Shown one piece after another: positions 3 to 52,690 of a stretch of DNA of 64,000 nt. The DNA lies in the NCBI GenBank assembly GCA_902798385.1, contig CADBWK010000004.1, forward strand, positions 61,045 to 125,044, in the 5' to 3' direction. The first letter of the stretch is position 1; the number at the start of each line of letters is the position of its first letter. The notes under the pieces were generated by a model. That model saw only the letters and a list, made by a program, of their open reading frames with translations, did no database searches and was not told where the DNA came from. A program made the position numbers and the translations under genes. Origin of the DNA: an uncultured Bacteroidales bacterium (GTDB lineage Bacteria > Bacteroidota > Bacteroidia > Bacteroidales > Paludibacteraceae).

Positions 3-3000
3 AGCGGTTTGCACGCTTCTGCACGCGCGCTGGCGCTGGCACACATGAAGATGCCGCTCTTTGTGATCTTTGACAATGCAGAAGCAGCACAATATCTGTA
101 CAGTGATCTGAAGGCGCTGGGCGCTGATGCCGGATTCTTTCCGGCGGCACAGAAACGCCGGGCGGTCGATGAAGCCGCGCAGATACAACGGACGGAATGC
201 CTGACTACCCTGCCCCGTATCATCGTCACCTACCCCGAGGCACTCGCAGAGCCGGTTCCGGCGAAAGAGGACTTGGCCAAACAAAGTGTGACGCTGAAGG
301 TGGGCGAAGAAGTACGTATCTCCGATTTGAGCGAGATGCTCGCTGACTTAGGCTTCGAGCGCGTGGACTTTGTGTTCCAACCCGGGCAGTATGCCGTGCG
401 TGGGTCGATCGTGGATATATACAGTTACAGCCACGACAACCCCTACCGTTTTGATTTCTTCGGCGACGAGATCGATTCGATTCGCGAGTTTGACATCGAA
501 GATCAGCTAAGTAAGGCGAAAGTAGAGAAGGCAGAGATCGTAGGAGCTAAGAGCCAAGAGTCCGAAGTCAAGAGTTATATCCCGGACTATCTGGCGGAGG
601 ATACAGTGTGGGTGAGCAATGATTGGAGCGTAGCGCGATTTAAGTTAGAGGGGTTACAGGTTACGGGTTACGAGTTACAGGAGCGAAAGACCATCGAGAT
701 AGCGGACAAGAGTACGTTTGCAGAGCACGTGAAAGTGACCTTCGAGACGATGCCTCAGCCGATCTTCCATAAGCAGTTCGATATCCTGACGGACGATCTC
801 AAGAAGCATATCGACGAAGGGTACAAGGTCTATATCTTGGCAGAGCAGCAAAAGCAGCTCGATCGTCTGAAAGCGATCTTTGAGAGTATTCAGCATTCAG
901 ATGTCAGTATTCAGTTCATCGGCATCAACGCGACGCTGCACGAAGGATTTGTGGATCGGGGGTTGAAGATTTGCTGTTATACCGACCACCAGATCTTCGA
1001 GCGCTACCACCGCGTGACGATGGCAAGCGAGAACGCACGACGTGGCAAAGCGATCATCACGTTAAGGGAGATCAACCAGTTGCAGATCGGCGACTACGTG
1101 GTGCATAGCGATCACGGAATTGCGAAGTTCGGCGGATTGGTAACAACGCCGGTGAACGGCAAACCGCAAGAGATGATCAAACTCAACTACCGCGACGGCG
1201 CGAACGTGTTTGTGAGTATCCATAACCTGCACCGCATCAGCAAGTACAAAGGTCGTGAGGGTTCAGAGCCTACGATCGCACGACTCGGAAGCGGTGCGTG
1301 GGAACGACTCAAGGAGCGCACGAAGGATAAGGTTAAGGATATCGCCCGCGATTTGATACGTCTCTACGCGACGCGCAAACAGCAGAAAGGTTTTGCGTAC
1401 TCGCCCGACGGATATATGCAGCACGAGTTGGAGGCATCGTTCTTGTACGAGGACACACCCGATCAGGCAAAGGCCACCGCAGAGGTTAAACGCGATTTGG
1501 AGAGTCCGATGCCGATGGATCGCCTTGTGTGCGGTGACGTAGGTTTTGGTAAGACCGAAGTAGCGATGCGCGCGGCGTTTAAGGTTGCGACAGACGGCAA
1601 ACAAGTAGCCGTACTCGTGCCGACGACCGTCTTGGCGTTGCAGCACTACAACACCTTCACGGAGCGAATGAAGAACCTACCGGTACGGATCGAGTACCTC
1701 AGCCGACTCAAGTCCGCAAAAGAGATCAAAGAGATCTTGGCAGACCTGGAAGCAGGGAAGATCGATATCCTCATCGGTACGCACAAACTGATCGGCAAGA
1801 GTGTCAAATGGCACGATCTGGGTTTGCTCATCATCGACGAAGAACAGAAGTTCGGTGTGGCAGCCAAAGAGAAGCTGAAGAGCCTGCGCGCGAACGTCGA
1901 TGTACTGACACTGACAGCAACCCCGATTCCGAGAACGCTTCAGTTCTCGCTCTTGGGTGCACGCGACTTGAGTATCATGACCACCCCGCCGCCGAACAGG
2001 TATCCCGTTCAGACGGAGTTAATCACGGTGGACGACGAAGACATCATCAAAGAGGCGATCGAGCTCGAGATGGCGCGTAACGGACAGGTGTTCATCGTCA
2101 ACAACCGCATTGAGATGCTGCCGCGTATCGAGCATAAGATACAGAAATTATGTCCCGAAGCACGTATCATCACAGCGCACGGACAGTTGCCGGCAGGAGA
2201 GATGGAAGAACGATTGGAAGCGTTTATCAACTACGATTTCGATATCTTGATATCCACGACTATCATCGAGTCGGGCGTCGATATACCGAACGTGAATACG
2301 ATCCTCATCTTCAGTGCAAACAAATACGGCCTCGCGGACTTACATCAACTGCGCGGGCGTGTAGGGCGCTCGAACCGCAAGGCATATTGCTACCTGATTG
2401 CACCGGAGAAAGAACTGTTGACCGAAGATGCAAGGCGGCGTCTGGAAGCCTTGAGTACGTTTGCTGAACTTGGCGCAGGATTCAACCTCGCGATGCAAGA
2501 TCTGGATATCCGCGGCGCAGGAAACATGTTAGGCTCCGAGCAGTCAGGCTTTATTGCCGACTTGGGCTACGAGACCTATCAGCGGATATTGAACGAGGCG
2601 GTGGAGGAACTGAAGGAGGAAGAAGGGTTAACGAGTGAAGGAATGAACGAGTTAACGAATGAAGGAGGCAAGCACCTCTGGTGTCAGGATGCGCAGTTGG
2701 AGACGGATATCGCGGTTTGTTTCCCGACGGATTATATCGAGAACATATCGGAGCGTATCACCCTCTACCGCGAGTTGGACGGCATCCGCAGCGAGGAACA
2801 GTTATTGGACTTCCGTAAGAAGCTGATCGACCGTTTCGGTGTACTGCCCGAACCGGCGGAAGAACTGCTCGAAGTGGTACGTTTGCGTTGGCTCTGTTGC
2901 CGTTTGGGGGTAGAGAAGATATTACTCAAGGGCGAACGAATGACGCTGTACCTCATACAACACAAAGATGCCTACTGGCAGTCGGAGATGTTCGGCAATA

Positions 3001-8705: not shown

Positions 8706-8708
8706 GGG

Positions 8709-9782
8709 TTAGTGGTTCGCGGTGAGTGCGTTGACGAGCATACCGCAGGCGGCAAGGATATCTTCGCCGCGGGAACGACGGATCGTGGTCGTGATGCCGT
8801 TCTGCGTGAGGTAATCCCGGAACCACTCCATTTGTTTCTCGTCGGACGCCGGAAAATCACGATCCACGCCTTCGTGAAAACGAATCAGATTAACGCGACA
8901 ATTCAAACCTTTGAGCAGTCGCGTTATTTCTTTGGCATGACGAATGGTATCGTTCTGCCCGTGCCAGCAGATGTATTCAAAGCTCACGCGACGCTGATGA
9001 CTCCAGTCGTACTGCTTTAGCAGCGCAACGACCTCGGTGACAGACATGAGTTTTTCGGCAGGCATGATGAGGGAGCGCTCTGCCGGGAAGGGATTGTGCA
9101 TCGAGATGGCCATATGAGCCTCACTCTCATCCAAGAAACGCTTCATGGCAGGGATACCGACCGTGGAGACAGTGATGCGTTTGGGTGACCACGCGCAACC
9201 GTAGGGTGCGGTCATGATCTCCAGAGAGCGCAGGACGTTATCGAGATTGTCCATCGGTTCGCCTTCGCCCATATAGACCAGATTGGAAAGGGGTGATTGA
9301 TCATTGGAAATTGCTATTTGGTCTATCTCGAAGATCTGATTCAGGATCTCGGCAGGAGAGAGGTGTCCGTGAAAACCCAACGTACCGGTCATGCAGAAAC
9401 GGCAACCCATCTTACAGCCCATTTGCGTGGACACGCATAGCGTAGCACGATCCTCTTCGGGGATATAGACCGATTCTATATAATTGGTAGTGGGTGATTG
9501 GTCATTGGTGATTGCAAAGAGGTATTTGCGCGTACCATCGACACTGACCGCTTCGCGAACAGGGACATGGCGACCGATCGTATAACGGGCTTTGAGGGCT
9601 TCGCGTCCTTTGAGGGAGATATTCGTCATGTCGTCAAAAGACGTCACCCGACGGACATAAAGCCATTCCGCCAGTTGTTTGCCGGCGAACTTCTGCAGAC
9701 CGACGCTCAAGGCGACTTCCTGCAGTTCAGACAGCGTCTTGCCAAGCAAGACATTGGTCATTGGTGATTGGTTATTGGTCAT
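8709..9782 (-). CDS. rlmN: Dual-specificity RNA methyltransferase RlmN
   Basis: RlmN is a radical-SAM enzyme that makes 2-methyladenosine at A2503 of 23S rRNA and A37 of some tRNAs. The CxxxC cluster motif (CKMGCRFCMTG) and the GEGEPMDN and CAWSPKRITVSTVGI segments are intact; the C-terminal catalytic Cys is in the AACGML end. The 357-aa length is normal. Three heptanucleotide tracts (9282-9320, 9483-9517, 9753-9781) lie in frame, giving the similar peptides SNDQSPLSN, TNDQSPTTN and the N-terminus MTNNQSPMTN. The start ATG overlaps the mscS stop by 4 bp (ATGA), so it is the distal gene of this operon. Confidence 0.96.
   Translation of the reverse strand: MTNNQSPMTNVLLGKTLSELQEVALSVGLQKFAGKQLAEWLYVRRVTSFDDMTNISLKGREALKARYTIGRHVPVREAVSVDGTRKYLFAITNDQSPTTNYIESVYIPEEDRATLCVSTQMGCKMGCRFCMTGTLGFHGHLSPAEILNQIFEIDQIAISNDQSPLSNLVYMGEGEPMDNLDNVLRSLEIMTAPYGCAWSPKRITVSTVGIPAMKRFLDESEAHMAISMHNPFPAERSLIMPAEKLMSVTEVVALLKQYDWSHQRRVSFEYICWHGQNDTIRHAKEITRLLKGLNCRVNLIRFHEGVDRDFPASDEKQMEWFRDYLTQNGITTTIRRSRGEDILAACGMLVNALTANH
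9282..9320 (-). repeat. Heptanucleotide tract 1 in rlmN
   Basis: Degenerate 7-bp units (ATTGGAA, AGGGGTG, ATTGATC, ATTGGAA, ATTGCTA on the plus strand) encode SNDQSPLSN directly before the conserved VYMGEGEP motif. Confidence 0.65.
9483..9517 (-). repeat. Heptanucleotide tract 2 in rlmN
   Basis: Units ATTGGTA, GTGGGTG, ATTGGTC, ATTGGTG, ATTGCAA encode ITNDQSPTTN just before the IESVYIPEE segment, a loop that is short in typical RlmN proteins. Confidence 0.75.
9753..9781 (-). repeat. Heptanucleotide tract 3 at the rlmN start
   Basis: Four units ATTGGTC, ATTGGTG, ATTGGTT, ATTGGTC cover the rlmN start region and supply the N-terminal peptide MTNNQSPMTN. The start codon itself lies in the tract. 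Confidence 0.8.
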
Positions 9783-10786
9783 TTATTCAGCATCGTCACA
9801 TTGACATGCGGATAAGCGAAAGTGAAGCCTTGTGGCGGCAGTTCGGTATAGAATCGTTCTTGCAGACCGAAGAACACATCCCAATAATCATCGGCTCGTA
9901 CCCAGGCACGCACTACAAAAGTGATATCATTGGCATTGAGCGATTTGAGTGCCACAAACGGCGCAGGGATAGCGTCTAACTGATAGTTAACGGTGGAGAG
10001 CTGATAGTTCTTCAGATTCAGTTCCTGGTACAACGCCGTCATATCCGTATCTTCTTGCAGCACGCGTTCATCGCTGTTGACGATTGCGAGGATCGCTTTC
10101 TTACAAGCCTCCGCATCGACGCCATAAGACACACTCACCAGCCACTCGATGCGGCGTAGCGGACGACCATTGTAGTTATTGATCACGCCGTTGGAGAGCG
10201 CACCGTTGGGCAGGATCACTACCCTGTTATCCGGCGTCAGGATCTTGGTGACGGTGATATTGACTTCGATCACTTTACCCAACACCCCTTGTGCCTCCAC
10301 GAGGTCACCGGCTTTGAAAGGTTTGAAGGCGAGTAACATCAGACCGCCGGCGAAGTTCTGTACCGTTCCGGACAACGCCATACCGATAGCCAGACCACCG
10401 GCTGCGAGCAGTGCCGCCAGAGAGGTAGTATCGACGCCGAGCGTACTGATGGAGATCACCACCAGCAAGACCGTCATCGAGATAGAGGTGAACGAGGTAA
10501 CGAACGAAGCGATCGTCGGTTCGGTGTTGCGCTTGTCGAATACGCGTTTGAGGATGCTCTTCACCCACCGAATGAGGAAGATACCGATAACGAAGATCAG
10601 CAAGGCTGCCAGCACTTTGAGACCGAACTGCGTGGCTTTATCCACAAAGATCTGCCAGAAATCCGACGGATTCTCTTTGGCTAACGCAATCATATGCTTC
10701 GCGCCCTCACGCACGGAGTCGCGTTTCTGCTGGATCTGTTCCGCTGTCGGAGCAGCTACCTGAAGTAAGATATAAAGCAAGTTCAT
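9779..10786 (-). CDS. mscS: MscS-family small-conductance mechanosensitive channel
   Basis: This 335-aa inner-membrane protein would open under membrane tension to release solutes during hypo-osmotic shock. It has an N-terminal helix, two membrane helices (KVLAALLIFVIGIFLI and a second around TVLLVVISISTLG), and the glycine/alanine-rich pore helix AALLAAGGLAIGMALSG that identifies MscS, followed by the beta domain (KAGDLVEAQGVLGKV, PNGALSNGVINNY) and the C-terminal alpha/beta domain. A degenerate tract around 9978-10010 encodes NYQLSTVNYQLD near the C-terminus, a repeat of the kind found in other genes here. It lies 2 bp after the DUF4293 gene and overlaps rlmN by 4 bp. Confidence 0.92.
   Translation of the reverse strand: MNLLYILLQVAAPTAEQIQQKRDSVREGAKHMIALAKENPSDFWQIFVDKATQFGLKVLAALLIFVIGIFLIRWVKSILKRVFDKRNTEPTIASFVTSFTSISMTVLLVVISISTLGVDTTSLAALLAAGGLAIGMALSGTVQNFAGGLMLLAFKPFKAGDLVEAQGVLGKVIEVNITVTKILTPDNRVVILPNGALSNGVINNYNGRPLRRIEWLVSVSYGVDAEACKKAILAIVNSDERVLQEDTDMTALYQELNLKNYQLSTVNYQLDAIPAPFVALKSLNANDITFVVRAWVRADDYWDVFFGLQERFYTELPPQGFTFAYPHVNVTMLNK
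9978..10010 (-). repeat. Degenerate 7-bp tract in mscS
   Basis: AACTATC recurs at a 21-bp offset within a run that encodes NYQLSTVNYQLD. The intermediate units are degenerate, so this is a weaker member of the heptanucleotide class. Confidence 0.45.
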
Positions 10787-10788: not shown

Positions 10789-11238
10789 TTATCGAATTCT
10801 ATCGGCGGCGCGCACGAGTGCCTCATCTTTGAGGATACGGCGCGTAGCCATGAACGTTAATACCATGCAAACGAGCGGGAACGAAGCCCAGGGCATCAGA
10901 TGCCACTCCACGCCAAGCGTCATTTTCGCGAGCCATATATAAATCGCCAGCACGCCGTAGTACCCGAGGCAGAGCATGATCGTGAAGATATTGAGTCGTG
11001 CCTGCAGGATACGTTTGTTATACAGGAAGATATCGATGAGTGCCAGTACGGGGATCAGGATGGTCGTCACCAACAAGCCCCAGAGTCCTTGCAGCGGAGC
11101 ACCACCCAACGCACTGAGTTCATATACTTGCAAGTCCGTTCCTTCCGGCGTCACGAGTTGAACGACCGGCAACCATATAAGGGCTATACCCAAGGCCACT
11201 ACGGCCAATAAATACAATGTTTGAATTCGCTGTATCAT
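10789..11238 (-). CDS. DUF4293 family four-helix membrane protein
   Basis: A 149-aa integral membrane protein starting MIQRIQTLYLLAVV, a start typical of the Bacteroidota family DUF4293. Four hydrophobic helices are visible: LYLLAVVALGIALIWLPVV, LWGLLVTTILIPVLALIDIFLY, IFTIMLCLGYYGVLAIYIWLA and the segment WASFPLVCMVLTFMATRRI. The function is unknown. It sits between a sugar acetyltransferase and mscS in the same direction with a 2-bp gap to mscS. Family assignment is from the recognisable N-terminal motif and topology. Confidence 0.8.
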   Translation of the reverse strand: MIQRIQTLYLLAVVALGIALIWLPVVQLVTPEGTDLQVYELSALGGAPLQGLWGLLVTTILIPVLALIDIFLYNKRILQARLNIFTIMLCLGYYGVLAIYIWLAKMTLGVEWHLMPWASFPLVCMVLTFMATRRILKDEALVRAADRIR

Positions 11239-11243
11239 AACCT

Positions 11244-11271
11244 TTTACACTTTACACCTTACATTTTACAC
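11244..11271. repeat. Intergenic heptanucleotide tract (TTTACAC units)
   Basis: TTTACAC, TTTACAC, CTTACAT and TTTACAC follow one another between the DUF4293 gene and the upstream acetyltransferase, reaching into the stop of the latter. Shows that the 7-bp tracts are not limited to coding DNA. Confidence 0.7.
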
Positions 11272-11784
11272 GTTCATCGCTTCCTCGAGCGATGCAACTC
11301 TATCTCCGTGGGCGTTGACCCATCCGATCTGTCGTGCGGGGTTACCCACCATCAGGGCGTACGCCGGTACATCTTTGGTGACCACCGAGCCGGCGCCTAT
11401 CATGCAGTATGCACCTAACTCATGCCCGCAGACGATGGTGGCGTTAGCGCCCACCGACACACCGCGGTGCAGGATGGTCTTGCGGTACTCATCTTTGCGG
11501 CTCACCGCCGCGCGGGGGTTGATGACATTGGTGAACACCATACTCGGGCCCAAGAACACATCGTCCTCGCAGACCACGCCGGTATAGACCGAGACGTTAT
11601 TCTGGATCTTGCAGTTACGTCCCAAGATCACGTCGGGTGAGATCACGACGTTCTGACCGATGTTGCAGTTCTCGCCGATCGTACAACCGGACATGACATG
11701 ACTGAAATGCCAGATCTTCGTGCCCTTACCTATCGTGCAACCTTCGTCCACATAAGACGACTCATGAACAAAATAATTTACCAT
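11266..11784 (-). CDS. Left-handed beta-helix sugar N-acetyltransferase (WbpD/WlbB-like)
   Basis: This hexapeptide-repeat acyltransferase resembles the enzymes that acetylate the 3-amino group of UDP-2-acetamido-3-amino uronic acid in surface polysaccharide synthesis. The chain has about nine turns of the [LIV]-G-x4 repeat (for example VDEGCTIGKGTKIWHF, TIGENCNIGQNVVI, SVGANATIVCGHELG), the FTNVINPRA loop and a C-terminal VGNPARQIGWV. I start at MVNYFVHESSYVDEG; a second Met five residues upstream is also in frame and both lie in a 7-bp-type repeat run (11777-11808). The exact substrate is inferred from family resemblance only, as no polysaccharide genes are adjacent. Confidence 0.82.
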   Translation of the reverse strand: MVNYFVHESSYVDEGCTIGKGTKIWHFSHVMSGCTIGENCNIGQNVVISPDVILGRNCKIQNNVSVYTGVVCEDDVFLGPSMVFTNVINPRAAVSRKDEYRKTILHRGVSVGANATIVCGHELGAYCMIGAGSVVTKDVPAYALMVGNPARQIGWVNAHGDRVASLEEAMNV

Positions 11785-17155: not shown

Positions 17156-17878
17156 TTATAGGCTCTCAGCAAAGACTTCAGCCTGCTCTATTTGGTCAAT
17201 TTTTCCCACATCCATCATGCGATAGTCAGCAGGGACGTAGGCTTTCAATGGTGCCTTATCCATGATCTCCAGATAGAAGTCTATCAACGAGAATTTATCT
17301 TGCGGCATTTCCTTTAAAAGCGCCAAAACCTCGGGACTTAAGATCTGACAACCGCTGAACGCTAAATGTCTTCCATCTTTCCCCTTTAACTCTCCGGTCT
17401 TGATATTTGTCCAGCCGCAAAGCCTATTCTGCACATCAAAACAGAGGTAACGCCGGGTGTCCCGCTCGGAGACCACCAGTTGACTAACACCCGTCTGCTC
17501 GTACGCGCGCACAAGCGCTCGCAAATCGATATTAGATAATATATCCACGTTGCAAGCTAATAAAGGATTAGCGTTTAGGGAATTAGGGTTTAGGGAGATT
17601 GCTTTCTTTAATCCTCCGCCGGTATCCAGCAACAGGTCGCGCTCGTCAGAGATAGTGATGTTACAACCCCAACCCTTATTAGCACGGACGGCATCGATGA
17701 TCATGTCAGGGAAATGATGCACGTTCACGATGATGTCCGTGATCCCGGCATCACGCAGTTTTTCCACCTGCCATTGGAGCAGCGGTTTGCCGGCAAGAGG
17801 CACCAGAGCCTTCGGCATCGTATCGGTGAGAGGCTTGAGGCGCGTGCCAAGACCCGCGGCAAAGATCATTCCAACCAT
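17156..17878 (-). CDS. Nucleotidyltransferase, MurU-like
   Basis: A 240-aa sugar-1-phosphate nucleotidyltransferase with the signature AAGLGTRLKPLTDTMPKALVP at the N-terminus, then KPLLQWQ, IIVNVHHFP, DERDLLLDTGGGLKKA and ACNVDIL. Together with the aminosugar-kinase-like gene at 18236-19135 it looks like the AmgK-MurU pair, which makes UDP-MurNAc from recycled MurNAc and bypasses de novo synthesis. That role is inferred from neighbourhood; other NDP-sugar products are possible. A heptanucleotide-like tract (17565-17597) encodes LNPNSLNANP in the middle of the domain. The start overlaps the RapZ-C gene by 13 bp. Confidence 0.82.
   Translation of the reverse strand: MVGMIFAAGLGTRLKPLTDTMPKALVPLAGKPLLQWQVEKLRDAGITDIIVNVHHFPDMIIDAVRANKGWGCNITISDERDLLLDTGGGLKKAISLNPNSLNANPLLACNVDILSNIDLRALVRAYEQTGVSQLVVSERDTRRYLCFDVQNRLCGWTNIKTGELKGKDGRHLAFSGCQILSPEVLALLKEMPQDKFSLIDFYLEIMDKAPLKAYVPADYRMMDVGKIDQIEQAEVFAESL
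17565..17597 (-). repeat. Heptanucleotide-like tract in the MurU-like gene
   Basis: Units GGATTAG, CGTTTAG, GGAATTAG (8 bp) and GGTTTAG encode the peptide LNPNSLNANP in an exposed loop between two conserved strands. Confidence 0.6.
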
Positions 17879-21302: not shown

Positions 21303-22067
21303 TTACTTATGCACCGCTTTATGGGCTGATTTTTGTGTCAAACGACGTTGCTTACTGCTCATTTGGGCATTCTTATACCGATTGCACCGAACATCCTTTC
21401 CGGTGAGTATCTCGTACCACACGCAGGCCACCGTATAACGTCCGTACACATAATTGAGGTGGTATCCGTCGCGGCACAAAGTATCGCCTAACTTGGTCTG
21501 ACGGGCATTCTGGATCGCTTCACCGCAGGGGATGATTGGTAATTGGTGATCGGTGATTAGCGATTCCGTACACGCCTGAATACTGTCCCACATCTCCTGT
21601 TGGTTGCAATGATAACGCGGATAAGCCGGATGCTTGGCATCCTTACTGTATGCCCAGGTCTGCATCCAATATATACGCGCGCGCGGCTGATACGCGCGCA
21701 CGCTATCTATTAATAAGGAGAGCCAAGGCTCGTACGAACTGCGAATTCCGCTGTCGTGGCTTGCCTGCTGGAGGGATATAACGTCATACTCGCCGTCTTG
21801 GAGTGCCTGACGTAATGTAATCGTATCCTTGATCACCCGCGGGCAGGCATTCGTACACACACGGTGCGAATAAGCAGCGGTATCTTTTAACAAGAACTGC
21901 GCATGTTGCTCGAGTGAACAACCGCCGTAGTAGAGGTTATGGACCTCCACCTGCACGTTCTTCGCGTCGCAGAGCGGCACGAGTTCCTGTTCCACCGCGT
22001 CCCACGAGAATGAATTCCCGATACACAGGACACGAATGACAAGTAATATAACACTAATGAGCTTCAA
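21303..22067 (-). CDS. DUF4886 SGNH-like protein, probably exported
   Basis: A 254-aa protein with a hydrophobic N-terminus (MKLISVILLVIRVLCIG) that runs straight into an SGNH block I motif, CIGNSFSWDAV, with the nucleophile Ser. Later come the YYGGCSLEQH block, VISLQQASHDSG, and the DGYHLNYVYGRY block that carries the catalytic Asp/His. These match the DUF4886 esterase/hydrolase-like family of Bacteroidota. The substrate is not known. A heptanucleotide tract (21534-21568) encodes LITDHQLPII. The start overlaps the polA stop by 14 bp. Confidence 0.8.
   Translation of the reverse strand: MKLISVILLVIRVLCIGNSFSWDAVEQELVPLCDAKNVQVEVHNLYYGGCSLEQHAQFLLKDTAAYSHRVCTNACPRVIKDTITLRQALQDGEYDVISLQQASHDSGIRSSYEPWLSLLIDSVRAYQPRARIYWMQTWAYSKDAKHPAYPRYHCNQQEMWDSIQACTESLITDHQLPIIPCGEAIQNARQTKLGDTLCRDGYHLNYVYGRYTVACVWYEILTGKDVRCNRYKNAQMSSKQRRLTQKSAHKAVHK
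21534..21568 (-). repeat. Heptanucleotide tract in the DUF4886 gene
   Basis: Units GATTGGT, AATTGGT, GATCGGT, GATTAGC, GATTCCG. The encoded peptide TDHQLP is almost the same as TNHQLP encoded by tracts in cmk and in the helix-hairpin-helix gene. Confidence 0.75.
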
Positions 22068-24378
22068 GCCAGTTCTCTCCTACGCCACATTCAGCAATCA
22101 ACGGAATAGACAGATGGACGGCATTCTGCATCTCGTTCACCACGATCTCCCGTACGCGTTCCACCTCTGCTGCCGGCACATTGAAATTGAGTTCGTCGTG
22201 CACCTGCATGATCATCTGCGCCTTTAGCCCCGCTTCTTTGAGCCGACGATGAATCGACACCATGGCCATCTTGATGATATCCGCCGCCGTTCCTTGAATC
22301 GGTGCATTGACCGCATTGCGTTCTGCGAACGAACGCACGGTAGCGTTCTGCGAGTGGATATCGGGCAAGTAACGCTTGCGTCCGAAAAGTGTCTCGGCGT
22401 ACCCTTTCTGCCGTGCTATTTCTTTCTGGGACTCGATATAACTGATCACCTTCGGGAATGCGGCAAAATAGTCGTCTATCAGTTGCTTGGCCTCGGTGCG
22501 CGAGCAATCGAGTTGTTGCGCCAAACCGAAAGCCGAGATACCGTATATGATACCGAAATTAGCCGTCTTGGCCTTACGGCGCTGGTCTTTGGATATCTGC
22601 TCAATAGGCAGTCCGTAGATACGCGCCGCTGTCGCTGCGTGGATGTCTTGCCCCGAACGGAAAGCGGCTAACATATGTTCGTCTTGCGAGAAATGTGCCA
22701 TGAGTCGCAGCTCGATCTGGCTGTAGTCGGCACTGAGGAACAAGCACCCGTCATCGGGTATGACGGCCTCACGAATGAACCGTCCGCGCTCCGAACGGAT
22801 CGGCAGGTTCTGCAGGTTCGGATTGCTACTACTGAGTCGCCCCGTCGCCGTGACGGTCTGGTTGTAGGTCGTGTGGATCTTCCCGTCCGTCGCGATATAA
22901 CTCGGCAGCGTTGCTATATACGTTGAGATCAGTTTTTTCAGTTCGCGGTAGTCCAAGATAAGTCCTACTATCTCGTGCTTCTCTTTGAGTGCCACCAGCA
23001 CCTCTTCGGAGGTAGAGTACTGACCGGTTTTGGACTTCTTCGCCTTCGCGTCCAAGTGCAGTTTCTCGAACAGAAGTTCGCCAACCTGCCGCGGACTATT
23101 GATATTAAAGGGTTCTCCGGCCAAGGCATAGATACGTTGCTCCAGGGCATTGAGTTCCTCCGTAAGGGCGGTTTCTGCCTGTTTGAGTTTGGCTACGTCA
23201 ATCCGCACGCCGGCTGCCTCCATCTCACGCAGTACCGGCACCAAGGGCAGCTCCACTTCGTTATACAGGTTCCATAGATCGGCATCCGCCTTCAGTGCCG
23301 CAAAATCCGGTTCTTTATTGGGGTTGAACGCCACCTCCGGATTGAGCAGATACTGACACAATCGCGCCTCGATGGTGTCATGGGTTACAGGGGAAGGGTT
23401 ACCGGTTGCGGGTTGCTCTTCAGGTTCTGCGAAGAGATCGAGTTGCGCAGGATCTGCCGGTTTGGATTTCTTCGGAGGAACAGGGGTATTTGCAACAATC
23501 GGATTATTCGGCGTGCTCTGCGGCAGTTTGCGCAGCAGGGTATTGAACTCCAAGTCTCTATAGATGGCAGTGAGGGCATCGAGGTTTGGTTCTTTCTTCG
23601 CCAGCAACGCCTCGTCCAAAGCAATAGGCACATCCGTGCGGATAGTAGCCAGAAAACGCGAGAACTTAATCTCTTCCACCTGTGTCTCCACTTTCGTGCG
23701 GAGCGCCCCTTTGATCTCATCCGTATGGGCAAGCATGTTATCGATAGAGCCAAACTGCTCCAACAAAGCCACCGCGGTCTTCTCCCCTACTCCTTTGCAA
23801 CCGGGGATATTATCCGACGCATCGCCCATCAATCCCAACAGGTCGATGACCTGTTCCTTGCGTTGCAGTCCGTATTTAGCGCACACCTCCTTGGGACCCA
23901 TCAGTTCAAAACCTCCCGTATGCCGCGGGCGATACATGAACACATGCTCGGAGACCAATTGACCGTAATCCTTATCGGGCGTCGCCATATAGACCTCATA
24001 GCCGGCTTGTTCACCTTTGACGGAGAGCGTACCGATGACATCATCCGCCTCAAAACCCGGCACTTCCAGCACGGGTATATTCATCGCCTCGAGGATCTGT
24101 TTGATGACCGGCACGGCTTTGCGGATGTCCTCCGGTGTCTCCGGCCGTTGCGCTTTGTACTGCTCGTACGCCTCGTGACGGAACGTACCGCCGGCAGGGT
24201 CAAAAGCCACTCCCAGATGCGTCGGATTGATCTTACGGATCAAGTCCTCCAAGGTCACGCAGAAACCGAAGATAGCCGAGGTGTTCTCGCCTTTACTATT
24301 CATGCGCGGTACACGGATAAACGCATAGTACGCACGAAAAATCATTGCATACGCATCGATAAGAAGTAGCTTTTTCAT
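22054..24378 (-). CDS. polA: DNA polymerase I lacking the 3'-5' exonuclease domain
   Basis: Pol I fills gaps and removes RNA primers. Residues ~1-290 are a complete 5'-3' exonuclease (MKKLLLIDAYAMIFRAYYAF, GFEADDVIG, the TPDKDYGQLV and GDASDNIPG motifs). The polymerase domain is complete from ~375 on (DYSQIELRLMAHFS near 560, the RRKAKTANFGIIYG finger helix, and the QVHDELNF end). Between them only ~65 residues of Pro-rich linker (SKPADPAQLDLFAEPEEQP) and a remnant DTIEARLCQYLLNPEV remain where the 3'-5' exonuclease domain normally occupies ~180 residues. Total length is 774 aa against ~920 in relatives. A 7-bp tract (23383-23418) lies in this linker. Confidence 0.94.
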   Translation of the reverse strand: MKKLLLIDAYAMIFRAYYAFIRVPRMNSKGENTSAIFGFCVTLEDLIRKINPTHLGVAFDPAGGTFRHEAYEQYKAQRPETPEDIRKAVPVIKQILEAMNIPVLEVPGFEADDVIGTLSVKGEQAGYEVYMATPDKDYGQLVSEHVFMYRPRHTGGFELMGPKEVCAKYGLQRKEQVIDLLGLMGDASDNIPGCKGVGEKTAVALLEQFGSIDNMLAHTDEIKGALRTKVETQVEEIKFSRFLATIRTDVPIALDEALLAKKEPNLDALTAIYRDLEFNTLLRKLPQSTPNNPIVANTPVPPKKSKPADPAQLDLFAEPEEQPATGNPSPVTHDTIEARLCQYLLNPEVAFNPNKEPDFAALKADADLWNLYNEVELPLVPVLREMEAAGVRIDVAKLKQAETALTEELNALEQRIYALAGEPFNINSPRQVGELLFEKLHLDAKAKKSKTGQYSTSEEVLVALKEKHEIVGLILDYRELKKLISTYIATLPSYIATDGKIHTTYNQTVTATGRLSSSNPNLQNLPIRSERGRFIREAVIPDDGCLFLSADYSQIELRLMAHFSQDEHMLAAFRSGQDIHAATAARIYGLPIEQISKDQRRKAKTANFGIIYGISAFGLAQQLDCSRTEAKQLIDDYFAAFPKVISYIESQKEIARQKGYAETLFGRKRYLPDIHSQNATVRSFAERNAVNAPIQGTAADIIKMAMVSIHRRLKEAGLKAQMIMQVHDELNFNVPAAEVERVREIVVNEMQNAVHLSIPLIAECGVGENWLEAH
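23383..23418 (-). repeat. Heptanucleotide tract in the polA linker
   Basis: Units GGTTACA, GGGGAAG, GGTTACC, GGTTGCG, GGTTGCT encode QPATGNPSPVT, exactly in the linker that replaces the 3'-5' exonuclease domain. Confidence 0.7.
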
Positions 24379-37586: not shown

Positions 37587-37588
37587 GT

Positions 37589-37665
37589 AGTAGGATATTA
37601 GTAGGTGATTAGTAGGTGATTAGTAGGTGATTAGTAGGTGATTAGTAGGTTATTAGTAGGTTATT
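37589..37665 (+). repeat. Seven tandem 11-bp repeats before ybeY
   Basis: Seven perfect or near-perfect units of AGTAGGTGATT (variants AGTAGGATATT first, AGTAGGTTATT in the last two) fill the whole gap between the SpmAB stop and the ybeY ATG. Each unit contains a purine-rich AGTAGG, so the repeat occupies the position of the ribosome-binding site. Confidence 0.92.
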
Positions 37666-37668
37666 ATC

Positions 37669-45513: not shown

Positions 45514-45534
45514 TCGTTCGTAAGATAAGAAGTG

Positions 45535-45562
45535 ACCAATCACCAATTACCAATGACAAATA
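45535..45562 (+). repeat. Heptanucleotide tract at the cmk start
   Basis: ACCAATC, ACCAATT, ACCAATG, ACAAATA directly before and across the cmk ATG. The unit is the reverse complement of the ATTGGTN units in rlmN. If the GTG at 45532 were used, the tract would add the peptide TNHQLP to Cmk. Confidence 0.85.
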
Positions 45563-46218
45563 AAATTATTGTTGCCATTGACGGCTATTCTTCTTGTGGT
45601 AAATCCACGATCGCAAAAGCGCTGGCGAAGTACGCCGGTTATACGTACGTAGACACGGGCGCCATGTATCGTGCGATCGCGTTGTATACGCTTCGTAACA
45701 AACTGACAGAGACCGCAGATATCATTGCTGCGTTGCCGAAGATCGAGGTGGTTTTTGTACTGACCAACGGGGCACAACATGTGACGCTGAACGGAGAAGA
45801 CGTGGAAGGTTTGATTCGTACCTTAGAGGTGGGAAATGCCGCCAGCCGGATCTCGCAGATCAAAGAAGTAAGAGCCTTCCTCGTGGCGCAACAGCAGAAG
45901 ATGGGTCTCAACAAAGGCATCGTCATGGACGGTCGCGATATCGGCACGGTGGTCTTCCCGAAAGCAGAACTCAAACTCTTCCTCACCGCCAGCCCCGAAG
46001 TACGTGCACAGCGCCGTTACGATGAGCTGGTTGCCAAAGGGGAGAAACCGAACTACGATGAAGTTTTGGCGGATGTCAACGACCGCGACTACCGCGACAC
46101 CCATCGAGCAGAGAGCCCGTTGCGACAAGCAGAAGATGCCATCGTGGTGGATAACAGCAATATGACTCCGGACGAGCAAATGCGCGTCATCTATGACTAT
46201 TTCGATCGATTCAAATAG
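45553..46218 (+). CDS. cmk: Cytidylate kinase
   Basis: CMP/dCMP kinase supplying CDP for nucleic acid and lipid synthesis. P-loop IDGYSSCGKST (residues ~8-18), DTGAMYRAIALY, MDGRDIGTVVFP and the RRYDELVAKGEKPNYDEV lid are typical; length 221 aa. I choose the ATG (MTNKIIVAIDGY) because conserved residues begin right there; a GTG 21 bp upstream would add only repeat-encoded residues. The 3' end overlaps ispH by 26 bp. Confidence 0.96.
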   Translation: MTNKIIVAIDGYSSCGKSTIAKALAKYAGYTYVDTGAMYRAIALYTLRNKLTETADIIAALPKIEVVFVLTNGAQHVTLNGEDVEGLIRTLEVGNAASRISQIKEVRAFLVAQQQKMGLNKGIVMDGRDIGTVVFPKAELKLFLTASPEVRAQRRYDELVAKGEKPNYDEVLADVNDRDYRDTHRAESPLRQAEDAIVVDNSNMTPDEQMRVIYDYFDRFK

Positions 46219-47080
46219 TGGCTTCTGCTTTGGTGTGACACGTGCCATCCAAGCGGCTGAGAGCGAACTTCAGAAGGGTTCGCTTTATTGCTTGGGCGAT
46301 ATCGTGCATAACGGACAAGAAGTCGCGCGGCTCGAACTAAAAGGACTCGCTACCATCGATTATGATGATCTGCGTACGCTTCCTTCTCATTCGCGCGTAC
46401 TACTTCGGGCACATGGAGAACCGCCATCCACCTATTGGATAGCCCAACAACGCGGCATAGAGATTATTGATGCCACCTGTCCGGTGGTAAAGAAACTGCA
46501 AGATCGTATTCGTGCCTGCTACGAAACCCATAAGAACGATGAGACTGTGCCTCCGCAGATTGTCATCTACGGCAAACCCGGACATGCGGAAGTGATCGGT
46601 CTTCAAGGGCAGACGAACAACACCGCCATCGTCATCGAGTCCGTGGATCAACTTGATCGCCTCGATTTCCACCGCCCCATCTATCTCTTCTCGCAAACCA
46701 CCAAATCGGTCGAAGGCTTCCACGCGCTCGTAGAGGCGATAAAATCTAAAATCTCAAATCTAAAATCTCCAATTGCGCTGGAAGCGCATGATACCATCTG
46801 CCGCAGTGTCGCGAATCGCGTGAAAGAATTACAAGCCTTCGCACGCGCCAATGACATCGTTCTCTTTGTCGGCGGAACCAAATCCTCCAACGCCAAGGTG
46901 CTATATAAAAATTGTGTTGAGGTCAACCCCAACACAATCTTCATTTCTTCTCCCGACGAAGTCGAAGATAAACTTTCAACTTTAAACTTTCAACCTTCAA
47001 CTCGGGTCGGGATTTGTGGTGCGACGAGCACTCCTTTATGGCTCATGGAAGCCGTTAGCGAACGCTTGTCAGCTTCTTGA
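46193..47080 (+). CDS. ispH: 4-hydroxy-3-methylbut-2-enyl diphosphate reductase
   Basis: Last step of the MEP pathway, an iron-sulfur enzyme giving IPP and DMAPP. The three cluster cysteines are in SGFCFGVTRA, DATCPVV and GICGATSTP; the LRAHGEPP, HAEVIGLQG and DTICRSVANRV motifs are present. Length 295 aa. Two heptanucleotide tracts are in frame: 46742-46772 (AIKSKISNLKSP) and 46972-47006 (KLSTLNFQPSTR, just before GICGATSTP). It overlaps cmk by 26 bp and, tail to tail, malQ by 26 bp. Confidence 0.96.
   Translation: MTISIDSNSGFCFGVTRAIQAAESELQKGSLYCLGDIVHNGQEVARLELKGLATIDYDDLRTLPSHSRVLLRAHGEPPSTYWIAQQRGIEIIDATCPVVKKLQDRIRACYETHKNDETVPPQIVIYGKPGHAEVIGLQGQTNNTAIVIESVDQLDRLDFHRPIYLFSQTTKSVEGFHALVEAIKSKISNLKSPIALEAHDTICRSVANRVKELQAFARANDIVLFVGGTKSSNAKVLYKNCVEVNPNTIFISSPDEVEDKLSTLNFQPSTRVGICGATSTPLWLMEAVSERLSAS
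46742..46772 (+). repeat. Heptanucleotide tract 1 in ispH
   Basis: AAATCTA, AAATCTC, AAATCTA, AAATCTC alternate in perfect 7-bp register within a loop before the conserved HDTICRS segment. Confidence 0.85.
46972..47006 (+). repeat. Heptanucleotide tract 2 in ispH
   Basis: ACTTTCA, ACTTTAA, ACTTTCA, ACCTTCA, ACTCGGG, ending directly before the third cluster-cysteine motif. Confidence 0.8.
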
Positions 47081-49742: not shown

Positions 49743-49773
49743 CAAAGATACTGCTTTTTTTTGATTTATGCAA
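49743..49773 (-). promoter_or_regulatory. Promoter of malQ
   Basis: Minus strand -7 TATCTTTG (49743-49750), -33 TTG (49771-49773), 20-nt gap. The spacer ends AAAAAAAAGCAG as in the stable-RNA promoters. Downstream, a run of CTAGTCYC-type repeats occupies the leader around 49708-49732. Confidence 0.75.
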
Positions 49774-49778
49774 GAATT

Positions 49779-50699
49779 CTATTCATTTTTGCGTAAAAAA
49801 GGCCAAATAAGGCACGGAAGTAGCGTATTTATCACCCATAACAGCACGCCTGCCAACGCTGCGTTCATCGTTCCGAACACTACCATTGCCCAAGCACCTC
49901 GTACGCCCACTTCCGCTATCGGCACATTCGGCGTAATCGTCACCAGCAAGTAATATACTGCGCTCTTCCCTATTCCTCCTATGATCCCTAGGTCTCCCAG
50001 TCCTCCTAGAGAATAAAGTATCAGCGCCAGTTGCACACACCAACATGCCAACCGTACCAGACTCTGCCCCACACTTACCATCACCAATCGATGCGACACC
50101 GTCGCCCATCGCTTCAACAACCTTGGCGCAAAAAAGAGTGCGAGAATAAGCAGAATCAGTACTGCGCACACAAGAAGATAATAACCATTCTCCAATTTCC
50201 AATTTCCAATCTCCAATGCCAGCGCTGTCGCCCCAGCAGCGACTATCGCCATCGTCATCGTCGCACTTCCTACCGCGCCCATACTCAGCACTTTCGGCCA
50301 GACAGACTCTCGACTCTCGACTCTTGACTCTCGACTCTCCCCTGCCATCAGCACCCCTCTCGCCGGATACTCGCCAAGTCGCCAAGGGGTGATCAATCCC
50401 GCCAACTTGCTATAATAGACCTGCCTATGCGCTTCGCGAAAAGAGATCTTCCATTCACCATTCACCATTAACCCTTCACCATTCATTAAGGTCTTCCACC
50501 GCCATGCTTCGAGCGTCATATTCACCGGCATCAGCGCCACGCATAGTAGCAACGCGCATATAGCAAGACCATCCATCCCGCTGACAGCAGCCCATAGACC
50601 GGCATAGTCATCGTACGTTGCCAGTTTATAGACGAGCCAAACGCATGCCGCGATTGCCACAACCCACTCGATGATATGATAAAGTGTCTTTTTGTCCAT
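49779..50699 (-). CDS. Flippase-like (UPF0104/LPG-synthase-TM-like) membrane protein
   Basis: A 306-aa polytopic protein starting MDKKTLYHIIEWVVAIAACVWLVYKL, with further helices including LLLCVALMPVNMTLEAWRW, TMTMAIVAAGATALAL and AMVVFGTMNAALAGVLLWVINTLL. The W-R-W-K-x-L segment after helix 2 is characteristic of the lysylphosphatidylglycerol-synthase transmembrane / flippase-like family. Substrate unknown. It carries four in-frame repeat tracts (49985-50012, 50191-50218, 50305-50339, 50451-50485), more than any other gene here, giving peptides such as SLGGLGDLG, EIGNWKLENG, ESRESRVESRES and NGEGLMVNGEW. It has an interleaved promoter with the divergent gene. Confidence 0.75.
   Translation of the reverse strand: MDKKTLYHIIEWVVAIAACVWLVYKLATYDDYAGLWAAVSGMDGLAICALLLCVALMPVNMTLEAWRWKTLMNGEGLMVNGEWKISFREAHRQVYYSKLAGLITPWRLGEYPARGVLMAGESRESRVESRESVWPKVLSMGAVGSATMTMAIVAAGATALALEIGNWKLENGYYLLVCAVLILLILALFFAPRLLKRWATVSHRLVMVSVGQSLVRLACWCVQLALILYSLGGLGDLGIIGGIGKSAVYYLLVTITPNVPIAEVGVRGAWAMVVFGTMNAALAGVLLWVINTLLPCLIWPFLRKNE
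49985..50012 (-). repeat. Heptanucleotide-like tract a in the flippase-like gene
   Basis: CCTAGGT, CTCCCAG, TCCTCCT and AGAG encode SLGGLGDLG between membrane segments. Confidence 0.5.
50191..50218 (-). repeat. Heptanucleotide tract b in the flippase-like gene
   Basis: TCCAATT, TCCAATT, TCCAATC, TCCAATG in perfect 7-bp register. Confidence 0.85.
50305..50339 (-). repeat. Heptanucleotide tract c in the flippase-like gene
   Basis: Five units GACTCTC, GACTCTC, GACTCTT, GACTCTC, GACTCTC. The cytoplasmic or periplasmic loop it encodes reads ESRESRVESRES. Confidence 0.9.
50451..50485 (-). repeat. Heptanucleotide tract d in the flippase-like gene
   Basis: CCATTCA, CCATTCA, CCATTAA, CCCTTCA, CCATTCA, encoding NGEGLMVNGEW. 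Confidence 0.85.
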
Positions 50700-50709
50700 A
50701 AATTCGCCG

Positions 50710-50757
50710 CAAAGATAGTAAAAATATTGCACATATGCAAAATATTTTGTAATTTTG
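50710..50757. promoter_or_regulatory. Interleaved divergent promoters (second example)
   Basis: Leftward: -7 TATCTTTG (50710-50717) and -33 TTG (50738-50740) on the minus strand. Rightward: -33 TTG (50727-50729) and -7 TAATTTTG (50750-50757). The -33 boxes lie 8 nt apart in TTGCACATATGCAA, the same geometry as at 36302-36349. The rightward start codon GTG follows only 4 nt after the -7 box. Confidence 0.75.
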
Positions 50758-50761
50758 CATC

Positions 50762-52690
50762 GTGAAAACACTATTAGCCGTCATATTATTGGTTACAAAT
50801 TTCTCGCTTGATGACATAATCGGCGATATATATAATTATTTGACCGAGTTCAGCGAAGTCGATTTTGAGCAACTGCAGACCGATCTTTATGCCCTTCATG
50901 ACGCACCTATCAACCTCAATAACACCTCCGACGAGGAGCTCTCGCAACTCTATTTTCTCTCGCCGCAGCAGATAGACGATATCCTTTTATATGCCCATAA
51001 ACATCCCTTTGAGTCGCTCTATGAATTGCGGATGATTCCGAGTCTGGAGGATTACGAGATACGCGATCTGTTGCCATTCGTGCGCGTAGGCGCGAGTACG
51101 CCCGAGGATAAAATGTACGCGCGCGAAGTGTTTGCCCATGCCTCACACGGGATCACCGCGCGCGTCGATGCACGGAATATAGAAGGATTTGAAGGCACCG
51201 ATCCTGTCTATGCGCAGGGACGCTATCGGTTTGACTACCAGCGTAAGATCACTTTCGGAGCGCAACTCCGCCGGCCGGTTGGCGGTAAAGCGAAAGATCT
51301 GCAGTGGGGTGCGTATCTGCAGTTACGCGACATCGCGCCGCACTTGCACACGGTGGTAGGTGGAAATTTTCAGGCATCATTCGGTCAAGGACTCGTCATG
51401 GCTCCGGTCTTTCATTCCGGCAAATCGATGTACGTCACTTCGATAGGTCAGCAACGCGAAGCGCTGCGTTATTACGGTTCAGTCGATGGCGCGGGACTGC
51501 ACGGCGCCGGCACTACGCTTCGCTGGGAATGGGGCAAGCAGACGCGTCTGGATGTGAGTGCACTCTACTCGTTCAACCATTATAACGACACTACTTGGCG
51601 GCATGTCGTAGGTGCCAATCTCACCCTGCGTCACAAGCGTTTGGAAGTCCAACTCTCCGGCATCGAGTCCATCTATTCCGATTCGATTCATCCTTACCGC
51701 AACGCCAAGTACAACCACCATTATTTCCGCGGTCGCAGCCAAGCCGTTCTCGGTGCCTCTTTCCGCTATAACCACGGCTGGTTCGATCTCTTCGGCGAAG
51801 TGGCCACAAGTCAAAATAATGAAATCATAAATCAACAATCAAAAATCACAAATCAAAAATGGGGAGTAGGCACGATTGTTGGATGTCGTTTTTATCCAAC
51901 AAGCGGCGTCTCCCTACTCGCCCTCTACCGCTACTATTCCCCTTGGTTTGACAACCAACTCGGTTATGCATTCTCCGAAACTTCGCGTATCAACGACGAG
52001 AACGGCGGTTACCTTGGTTTTGACATCACTCGTCTTCGCAACTGGCGCTTCCTCGGTTATGGCGATGTCTTCTATTTCTCCGGTTATAAATACGGCCTTG
52101 GCAACGACACTTGTACTCTCGGCTACGATGCCATGGCAGAGGTTCAGTATCATTCCACCAATCACCAATTACCAATCACCAATGACCAATGGTGGCTCTC
52201 CCTCCGCGCCCGAGCACGCAAAAAAGGAGCAAGTACTTATTCCATACGCGCAATCTTCGACTGGCAACGCAACGGCTGGTCTCTCCGCACCACCGCCGAT
52301 GCAAATTACGTAGAGAGTTACGGAGTAAGTTTGGCGCAAGATATCGCGTACGACTTCCAATCTCCAATGTCCAATATCCAATGTCCAATCACTCTTCGCG
52401 TCAGAATGCAATTCTTTGACGCGAGAGATTGGACAAACCGCATCTATCTCTACGAGCATGATGTGCTCTATGCTTATTCTATCCCCGCCACATACGGTCT
52501 TGGAGGACGTTTCTACCTCTGTCTCCGCTGGCAGATCATCCCGCAACTGGCGCTCTATTTCCGCGCCTCCGAGACGGTCTATGCGCGGGAGTGGTATATT
52601 GAGAAATATCCTAAATCACCAATCACAAATCACCATTCACAAATTCCGACAAGGACCGACCTTCATCTCCTCCTCCGCGCGAAACTTTGA
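50762..52690 (+). CDS. Helix-hairpin-helix domain protein with outer-membrane beta-barrel
   Basis: A 642-aa exported protein: signal sequence MKTLLAVILLVTNFSL, then a ComEA-like double helix-hairpin-helix domain (INLNNTSDEELSQLYFLSPQQIDDILLYAHKHPFESLYELRMI, residues ~50-95), then ~530 residues rich in alternating aromatic strands ending RTDLHLLLRAKL, consistent with an outer-membrane barrel. This domain order occurs in Bacteroidota proteins of unknown function; DNA binding at the surface is possible. Four heptanucleotide tracts are in frame (51822-51856, 52157-52191, 52356-52390, 52614-52648), probably in external loops. The GTG start makes the transcript leaderless. Confidence 0.78.
   Translation: MKTLLAVILLVTNFSLDDIIGDIYNYLTEFSEVDFEQLQTDLYALHDAPINLNNTSDEELSQLYFLSPQQIDDILLYAHKHPFESLYELRMIPSLEDYEIRDLLPFVRVGASTPEDKMYAREVFAHASHGITARVDARNIEGFEGTDPVYAQGRYRFDYQRKITFGAQLRRPVGGKAKDLQWGAYLQLRDIAPHLHTVVGGNFQASFGQGLVMAPVFHSGKSMYVTSIGQQREALRYYGSVDGAGLHGAGTTLRWEWGKQTRLDVSALYSFNHYNDTTWRHVVGANLTLRHKRLEVQLSGIESIYSDSIHPYRNAKYNHHYFRGRSQAVLGASFRYNHGWFDLFGEVATSQNNEIINQQSKITNQKWGVGTIVGCRFYPTSGVSLLALYRYYSPWFDNQLGYAFSETSRINDENGGYLGFDITRLRNWRFLGYGDVFYFSGYKYGLGNDTCTLGYDAMAEVQYHSTNHQLPITNDQWWLSLRARARKKGASTYSIRAIFDWQRNGWSLRTTADANYVESYGVSLAQDIAYDFQSPMSNIQCPITLRVRMQFFDARDWTNRIYLYEHDVLYAYSIPATYGLGGRFYLCLRWQIIPQLALYFRASETVYAREWYIEKYPKSPITNHHSQIPTRTDLHLLLRAKL
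51822..51856 (+). repeat. Heptanucleotide tract a in the HhH/barrel gene
   Basis: AAATCAT, AAATCAA, CAATCAA, AAATCAC, AAATCAA encode NEIINQQSKITNQ. Confidence 0.85.
52157..52191 (+). repeat. Heptanucleotide tract b in the HhH/barrel gene
   Basis: Five perfect-register units ACCAATC, ACCAATT, ACCAATC, ACCAATG, ACCAATG encode TNHQLPITNDQ. Confidence 0.9.
52356..52390 (+). repeat. Heptanucleotide tract c in the HhH/barrel gene
   Basis: TCCAATC, TCCAATG, TCCAATA, TCCAATG, TCCAATC encode FQSPMSNIQCPI. Confidence 0.9.
52614..52648 (+). repeat. Heptanucleotide tract d in the HhH/barrel gene
   Basis: AATCACC, AATCACA, AATCACC, ATTCACA, AATTCCG encode SPITNHHSQIP near the C-terminus. Confidence 0.8.

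Follow-up and report, generated by a model that had tools for sequence, protein, structure and literature searches.

Heptamer tracts inside the genes of an uncultured Bacteroidales lineage: inner structure, turnover and a possible origin in strand realignment

Why should many unrelated genes of one bacterium carry short tandem tracts built of 7-bp units? The question is raised by a 64-kb stretch of DNA (the window; positions 61,045 to 125,044 of contig CADBWK010000004.1, assembly GCA_902798385.1) from an uncultured Bacteroidales bacterium of the Paludibacteraceae. An earlier note, made from the sequence alone, had described degenerate heptamer tracts lying in frame in genes such as mfd, rlmN and ispH, and had ascribed them to a genome-wide process that seeds and expands heptamers. 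The answer that we favour, with a probability of about one half, is that the tracts are mutational: 7-nucleotide (nt) realignment of the nascent strand would produce them, selection would sift them and recombination would reshuffle them. The earlier interpretation was right in outline, and is changed here on simple insertion, recombination, inner structure and the other repeat lags. The window's own genome (G000) comprises 1.92 Mb in 44 contigs and is about 74% complete; its closest named relatives are metagenome-assembled genomes (MAGs), many of ruminant origin, labelled Paludibacteraceae or uncultured Bacteroidales. The relative most often referred to below, G003, is RUG10750.

An excess of 7-bp periodicity across the genome had been set beforehand as a test of the process, and it was found: 864 kb of G000, in contigs chosen for their ACCAAT matches, contain 123 lag-7 segments (142/Mb), and a triplet-shuffled copy of the same 864 kb contains none. 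Each other lag from 3 to 13 gives 0-21 segments (2, 21, 15, 0, 19, 4 and 0 at lags 6, 8, 9, 10, 11, 12 and 13, respectively). The lag spectrum and the triplet shuffle together rule out a chance origin of the tracts. The proposal of a genome-wide process thus stands as regards the constant 7-bp period, the many unit sequences and the in-frame placement, but heptamers are the main and not the sole class, as lags 8, 9 and 11 are enriched too (lags 10 and 13 are not). In the relatives, 294 lag-7 segments were counted in 1.39 Mb from 80 loci, all anchored on ispH, which is itself a gene with tracts. Within the window, 14 places reach at least 17 of 21 lag-7 matches (the strict threshold) and 24 reach at least 14 of 21 (the looser one); at the strict level every other lag between 2 and 30 yields 0-3 places, except lag 14, a multiple of 7 (9 places). 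Tandem Repeats Finder (TRF) independently reported 7-bp arrays at most of the lag-7 places.

The earlier account of the repeat form was correct on the constant period; what it did not describe was the inner structure, which we read as a word with a variable spacer, at a total length near 31 bp. The 123 tracts of G000 represent 63 distinct consensus units. G is nearly absent from one strand of the tracts: the minor share of G or C is below 0.1 in half of them (0.512 in G000, 0.5 in the relatives), against 0.009 and 0.007 of random stretches. Tract lengths are multimodal, with peaks at 18-20, 25-27, 30-33 and 37-39 bp and the mode at 30-33 bp. These peaks are not multiples of 7 but multiples of 7 plus a partial word, and length modulo 7 is mostly 2-6, where homology-free duplication of random 7-mers would give 0-1.

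Variation within the tracts is concentrated in phase. Among 486 unique tracts, 37% of pairs of deviations from the unit consensus share a phase, against 14% in simulation (maximum 16%). Because the first choice of tracts could favour same-phase variation, the test was rerun under a Hamming rule blind to phase. When two deviations lay in different units of a 28-bp window, both fell in one phase in 73 of 196 cases (28 expected); in 35-bp windows the corresponding counts were 32 of 63 for two deviations (9 expected) and 11 of 52 for three (1.1 expected). In the 255 tracts with one variable phase, that phase has a G content of 14.1%, against 4.4% in the words, and common words are ACCAAT, AAATCA, TCCAAT, TCAATT, TCAAAT, GTAACC and AACTTT. 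It seems plausible, then, that the variable phase is a spacer.

Some results of the same test weigh against this. Two further cells gave 0 of 97 (2.0 expected) and 0 of 24 (0.1 expected), although the majority rule of the test nearly excludes the cases that these two cells count. Moreover, the two deviant bases are identical in 38 of the 73 one-phase cases of the 28-bp set and in 23 of the 32 of the 35-bp set, and the same-phase variation is partly unit duplication. The different-base remainder amounts to 35 in the 28-bp set, against roughly 19 by chance, and to 9 in the 35-bp set, against about 6. Since duplication can account for the same-base cases, the spacer reading rests on the first (73 of 196) and third (11 of 52) sets.

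Units are also shared unevenly. The unit is common to both tracts in 6.8% of 621 pairs taken within a locus and in 2.4% of pairs taken between loci, and none of 300 permutations gave a value as high. In the relatives, sharing is 14% among 63 pairs less than 500 bp apart and 4.9% among 265 pairs at 5-20 kb; local copying may occur there, close tracts sharing units more often. In G000 it is about 2% and flat with distance, and local copying between nearby tracts in this genome is ruled out by the lack of a distance effect.

Where do the tracts lie with respect to genes? With open reading frames (ORFs) called by a simple rule and no gene finder, as they also were for the other-family windows and unit-number comparisons below, 649 tracts from 189 loci, each 10 kb or longer and together 3.68 Mb, fell wholly inside ORFs in 393 cases, outside in 166 and at edges in 90. 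ORFs cover 91.5% of this DNA, so tracts are still fewer in them than coverage predicts. The coding strand is the C-rich one in 261 of 387 coding tracts, the G-rich one in 119, and the two are equal in 7. Of 161 non-coding tracts, 69 have a stop codon no more than 5 bp from one of their ends. The bias turns round in the non-coding tracts that lie up to 60 bp from a gene, where tracts that are not C-rich (a 'G-rich' class that includes ties) outnumber C-rich ones 79:24 after stops and 65:34 before starts. The direction of the strand bias follows from stop content: of 671 tracts, 546 have at least one open frame when read in the C-rich orientation and 310 when read in the G-rich one.

That tracts avoid conserved motifs, as claimed before, was assessed in one gene, ispH, and is true there of the strictly invariant positions: across 26 species, no strictly invariant column falls in the tract-holding residues 180-200 or 251-272. 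It does not extend to nearly invariant residues. The segment 180-200 contains V180, I183, E197, H199 and D200, all nearly invariant, and two of them, V180 and I183, fall inside the called span of the AAATCTN tract, which speaks against a clean filter. In a structure model of IspH (mean predicted local distance difference test score, pLDDT, 90.3), each tract occupies the end of a helix together with the loop that follows it. In other species, tract sites of ispH (L066, L070, L071 and L073) and rlmN (L116) are taken up by another kind of dispersed insert, likewise in frame, whose peptides resemble RSYSESGLTGEAGPTA.

We then come to the behaviour of tracts between sister genomes, compared at sites where both flanks were found. 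Between G000 and G003, where 20 of 156 tracts were usable with a lower tract threshold, six sites have a tract of the same family, one a shorter form, eight a different heptamer tract, and five are absent or otherwise changed. At a stricter threshold, 22 sites of this pair gave 5 same, 3 near, 4 swapped and 10 none, and all sister comparisons together, 122 sites in which the G091-G093 trio enters three times, gave 59, 8, 15 and 40; the class 'none' takes in degraded sub-threshold tracts and one site read as another repeat. In nine pairs at mean flank identity 0.92-0.98 (77 sites, with the G091-G093 trio again entering three times) the corresponding counts are 49, 2, 6 and 20. Swapped sites hold another heptamer family at similar length, sometimes with the strands reversed. 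The expectation that orthologue alignment would reveal insertions absent in neighbours is therefore borne out at some sites, while at others the neighbour keeps the tract or carries a different heptamer tract.

In same-family comparisons, length is equal in 43 of 59; of the 16 that differ in length, 8 do so by an exact multiple of 7. These eight represent five distinct sites, as the G091-G093 trio repeats two, and seven of the eight are labelled coding by the loose ORF rule. One allele has a run of N within the tract. At some sites where one sister has a heptamer tract, the other has something else: palindrome-like or 8-bp periodic stretches in L151 (near 6411-6482) and L165 (near 6297-6346), and in L200 (19765-20062) a 296-bp stretch in which pieces of inverted repeats are scattered and which in part matches other loci.

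Some changed tracts are embedded in stretches identical to a third species: 110 bp (L166/L184), 83 bp (G003/L197), 54 bp (L181/L183) and 47 bp (L188/L174). Base-level alignment shows ordinary divergence outside these stretches, and at the first three the sister differs inside the patch and matches better outside it; at the fourth, the sister L213 did not align. In 100-bp bins the identity of the sister dips locally, while over the whole region the third species is no nearer than the sister. From these identical patches we infer short-patch homologous recombination between species, and to judge from such alignments some tract changes are best explained by it and not by new seeding. Seeding and expansion, as first proposed, would thus give way to interspecies exchange for some of the allele changes. 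On the other hand, several changed sites yielded no better third-species donor, and at the ispH swap of G085/G086 a third species matched at best part of the patch, both of which tell against exchange as a general explanation.

The scheme that we propose would run as follows. During synthesis the 3' end of the nascent strand would fray and then re-pair 7 nt back. For this, the last 5-6 bases (the word) must match, while the one or two bases beyond it, on the side away from the 3' end (the spacer), would be free, and repeated rounds could build tracts of 4-5 words. Selection would retain an in-gene tract only if it brings no stop codon, keeps the frame and spares invariant residues; tracts in other orientations would survive outside genes, often adjoining stop codons. 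Related species would then trade tract alleles through short homologous recombination. Two considerations count against this scheme: plain slippage would copy the spacer too, and slippage leaves unaccounted for both the recurrence of AAATC in 20 families and the length peak near five words.

How far the tracts extend was assessed with sequence patterns (ACCAATN x3, AACTTTC x3, AAATCNN x4 and a genus tract pattern), the counts of which are overlapping matches and not tracts. ACCAATN x3 has 47 matches in G000, against 1 for the reversed control pattern, and is found in 22 of 36 other genomes of the genus and in 0 of 24 genomes from other families. AACTTTC x3, for which the reversed sequence is the same cyclic unit and thus no control, is found in 16 of 17 chosen genus genomes and in 3 of 295 other genomes of the phylum sample. 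The DNA units tested are genus-specific or patchy; this, together with orthologue alignments between relatives, rules out ordinary conserved coding sequence. The second refuting outcome named in the earlier note, peptides conserved in distant genera, was likewise not borne out, in a comparison with those genera made on the DNA units and not on the peptides. Tract density reaches 62-275 per Mb in G003, G014, G017, G032 and G035 (40-400 kb sampled each), the G003 contigs having been placed on repeat matches. It is low in G011 (25/Mb, one tract) and G028 (0), with 40 kb sampled from each. In five stretches of 6-7 kb from further genus members with a long DNA polymerase I (PolA) frame, the only tracts are 2 in G019. 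Seven other-family genomes, sampled by 64 kb in all, gave no tract (about 9 expected at 142/Mb); one of these seven, G048, has AAATC matches elsewhere. Of the other windows analysed, one set was also placed on repeat matches, and a further set includes 15 placed on rlmN and 5 beside windows of the former set.

Among 148 other Bacteroidales genomes, 21, spread over 20 families, match AAATCNN x4, G448 having the most matches (69), and in the matches listed both spacer bases vary within single tracts there too. The reversed pattern (CTAAA words) was itself matched in 14 of 149 genomes (maximum 49, in G496), maybe as other tract words, and therefore provides no clean null. Six windows placed on AAATC matches in five other-family genomes (53.7 kb) hold 13 lag-7 tracts, 12 outside ORFs and 1 at an ORF edge. 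Heptamer tracts are thus patchy across the order, and within this sample it is coding residence that sets the genus apart.

Could the replication machinery of the genus contribute? The PolA of the window (774 amino acids, aa) has 5'-3' exonuclease and polymerase domains, and no match to PF01612 (the 3'-5' exonuclease) at E values up to 1. PF01612 matches in full in G439 and G417, which are other Bacteroidales, and only from profile position 64 on, in its C-terminal part, in G013 and G024, deep-clade members of the genus. Among 149 Bacteroidales, a polymerase-domain match was found in 144 and none in five; no frame with a complete polymerase domain is shorter than that of G000 (785 aa), the next being that of G499 (863 aa), the domain of G490 (837 aa) being incomplete and G042, G050 and G425 having mere fragments. 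G414, from the other genus of the same family, has a PolA of 1067 aa and no AAATC match. In the genus sample PolA was matched in 57 of 61 genomes, and the 56 full frames include 46 of up to 820 aa, 7 of at least 880 aa and 3 in between. The median number of tract-pattern matches is 59.5 in genomes with the short frames and 4 in those with the long ones (Mann-Whitney p=0.0004), and the three intermediate frames go with 214, 24 and 38 matches. Loss of Pol I proofreading is thus a candidate cause, a lead suggested by correlation only. Two genomes, G073 and G074, have about 600 pattern matches each, far above other genus members, with PolA frames of 788 and 809 aa.

Several facts make this lead weaker than the medians suggest. 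Identity of ispH to the window is below 60% in all seven long-frame genomes, as it is in G010 (837 aa), G029 (780 aa, 15 matches) and G081, in which no PolA was found; the long-frame genomes are one deep clade and therefore a single contrast. Over the 56 genomes, PolA length and matches are weakly rank-correlated (rho -0.24, p=0.07), and single genomes depart from the trend, G007 (856 aa) having 214 matches and G072 (812 aa) just 2. The reversed control was often matched (pattern to control 155:25 in G000, 35:38 in G014 and 25:31 in G080), so the tract-pattern count is a rough measure. AAATC-rich genomes of other Bacteroidales have a full-length PolA (G448, 915 aa; G455, 936 aa). Finally, in hairpin-template assays exonuclease-deficient polymerases can slip less, by way of more strand displacement, as reported in PMC4134008.

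Of the competing explanations, plain neutral replication slippage from random seeds, in which neither a particular word nor a cause peculiar to the lineage would be involved and unit sharing would be a matter of composition, survives best; we regard it as unlikely, though it deserves to be kept in mind. Unit-number changes by 7 agree with it, and heptamers are over-represented in many bacteria, 7 nt having been suggested to approximate the polymerase footprint (Mrazek 2007, as reported in PMC4692102). It is at odds with the phase concentration, the length peak and the within-locus sharing of units, and with a tract density that differs widely among genomes of one genus.

A more far-reaching proposal would concern the whole order: a sequence-directed writing of 5-6-nt words with free spacers (about 31 bp), Bacteroidales-wide, which in the genus, after loss of Pol I proofreading, would enter coding DNA as in-frame linker alleles traded by very short recombination patches. 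We consider it doubtful. An improbable rival is a word-writing enzyme, templated or sequence-directed, in the form of a polymerase that would recopy a short template, add an untemplated base at each jump and have its product inserted at breaks. The conserved word with a variable phase, the preferred length of 4-5 words, the vocabulary common within a locus (6.8% against 2.4%) and the AAATC word in 20 other families would all suit such an enzyme. Against these stand the many words per genome (63 units in 123 tracts), the lack of short-distance unit sharing in G000 and the existence of unit-number changes by multiples of 7, and whole-tract replacement by an enzyme is weakened by the third-species patches at some changed sites, though not at others.

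It is still less probable that the tracts are functional sites, that is, selected regulatory, phase-variation or protein-binding repeats. Non-coding tracts do lie near stops and starts, and TAACTGA repeats upstream of genes have been proposed as regulatory in Beggiatoaceae (PMC4679880). Here, however, the unit family switches at one site between sisters, sometimes with reversed strand, and over half of the tracts are in ORFs. Length, moreover, is constant in 43 of 59 same-family comparisons, which would be unusual for contingency loci. An assembly artefact of metagenome bins is very improbable, since, even if the named relatives are MAGs or assemblies of uncultured isolates and one tract allele contains the N run, separately assembled genomes carry the same tracts at the same sites, the genes stay open, and tracts of about 31 bp are shorter than the usual sequencing read.

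In the window itself, most of the tracts named in the earlier note were recovered (Table 1): those in mfd, the NTP-transferase gene, the DUF4886 gene and at the cmk start, both in ispH, all four in the HhH/barrel gene and, weakly, the one in polA. In rlmN two of the three are clear and in the flippase-like gene three of the four, the remaining one in each being below threshold, and the mscS tract exists only as an overlap at the end of the mscS-like gene. The tract placed at an acetyltransferase start (11235-11279) is actually at the 3' end of the acetyltransferase ORF, which is on the minus strand, and from there extends as far as the beginning of the neighbouring gene. Pfam assigned no family to the flippase-like gene and gives just a weak HhH match, under the cut-off, for the HhH/barrel gene. 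Two 11-bp tandem arrays were also reported by TRF, at 37584-37666 (7.5 copies) and 59659-59702 (4 copies).

Table 1. Heptamer tracts and the polA gene in the 64-kb window, with the state of the site in G003 where recorded.
Positions	Strand	Feature	State in G003	Detected by
644..686	+	GTTACNG tract in mfd	same family (flank identity 93/86%)	lag-7 scan
9480..9521	-	ATTGGTN tract inside rlmN, peptide TNDQSPTTN		lag-7 scan
9744..9789	-	ATTGGTN tract at rlmN start, overlapping end of mscS-like gene		lag-7 scan, TRF
11235..11279	.	TTTACAC tract at junction of two genes	CAGTTTT/CAGTATT-type tract	lag-7 scan
17568..17595	-	TTAGGGT/15-bp repeat in NTP-transferase gene	ACCCGTA tract	lag-7 scan, TRF
21528..21567	-	ATTGGTN tract in DUF4886 gene		lag-7 scan
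22054..24378	-	polA, 774 aa, with weak GGTTACN tract at 23389-23417		lag-7 scan, domain search
45525..45567	+	ACCAATN tract at cmk start	TTTAGAT-type tract	lag-7 scan
46732..46778	+	AAATCTN tract in ispH, residues about 180-196; TRF core 46740-46768		lag-7 scan, TRF
46962..47006	+	AACTTTC tract in ispH, residues about 257-272	AAATCAN tract	lag-7 scan
50178..50224	-	TCCAATN tract in flippase-like gene		lag-7 scan
50299..50349	-	GACTCTC tract in flippase-like gene		lag-7 scan
50442..50489	-	CCATTCA tract in flippase-like gene	absent	lag-7 scan
51815..51870	+	AAATCAN tract in HhH/barrel gene	shorter	lag-7 scan
52149..52198	+	ACCAATN tract in HhH/barrel gene	present	lag-7 scan
52346..52399	+	TCCAATN tract in HhH/barrel gene	present	lag-7 scan
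52604..52649	+	AAATCAC tract in HhH/barrel gene		lag-7 scan, TRF

The over-representation of heptamers is already known; what is new here is their residence in genes, the word-spacer anatomy, the preferred length and the apparent exchange between species. In a search of the literature on the genus and on Bacteroidales heptamers, which left most subscription journals outside, we found no description of coding heptamer tracts of this kind. Such tracts supply the products of housekeeping genes with new segments. A single genome of the genus offers more than 100 sites, its species number dozens and stand at graded distances from one another, and a polymerase change varies within it; with such material in one genus the cause of the 7-nt period becomes testable.

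Two known systems resemble the tracts in part. The short tandemly repeated repetitive (STRR) sequences of filamentous cyanobacteria are tandem degenerate heptamers, alike in form; we know of no coding residence, interspecies allele exchange or word-spacer anatomy described for them. Rickettsia palindromic elements are in-frame repeats tolerated in unrelated proteins, but their units are longer and palindromic and do not form 7-bp tandem tracts.

Closer comparison is possible with two published sets. The TAACTGA repeats of Beggiatoaceae, cyanobacteria and five Bacteroidetes, including Paludibacter, are likewise dispersed heptamer direct repeats, some of them in ORFs, mostly at ORF ends, and in Beggiatoaceae mostly just upstream of start codons (PMC4679880). 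They are, however, a single unit, and TAACTGA is the consensus of 0 of the 671 tracts here. The heptamers of Xanthomonas (GGGAATC) and Nostoc (GGGGAYT), described in PMC4692102, which also mentions Calothrix heptanucleotides and a suggested cause of heptamer excess, share more with our tracts: degenerate 7-bp units at many sites, typically about four units, with sister species keeping the gene context and varying length and sequence. Those genomes have one G-rich unit type each, whereas here there are many units, one strand is G-poor, and GGG or CCC, the kind of run from which a quadruplex could form, occurs in just 33 of 671 consensus units. Residence differs as well: the intragenic share is 11% in Xcc and 7% in Xac, and 68% of the Nostoc repeats are intergenic (PMC4692102), while in the lineage studied here 393 of 649 tracts lie wholly within ORFs.

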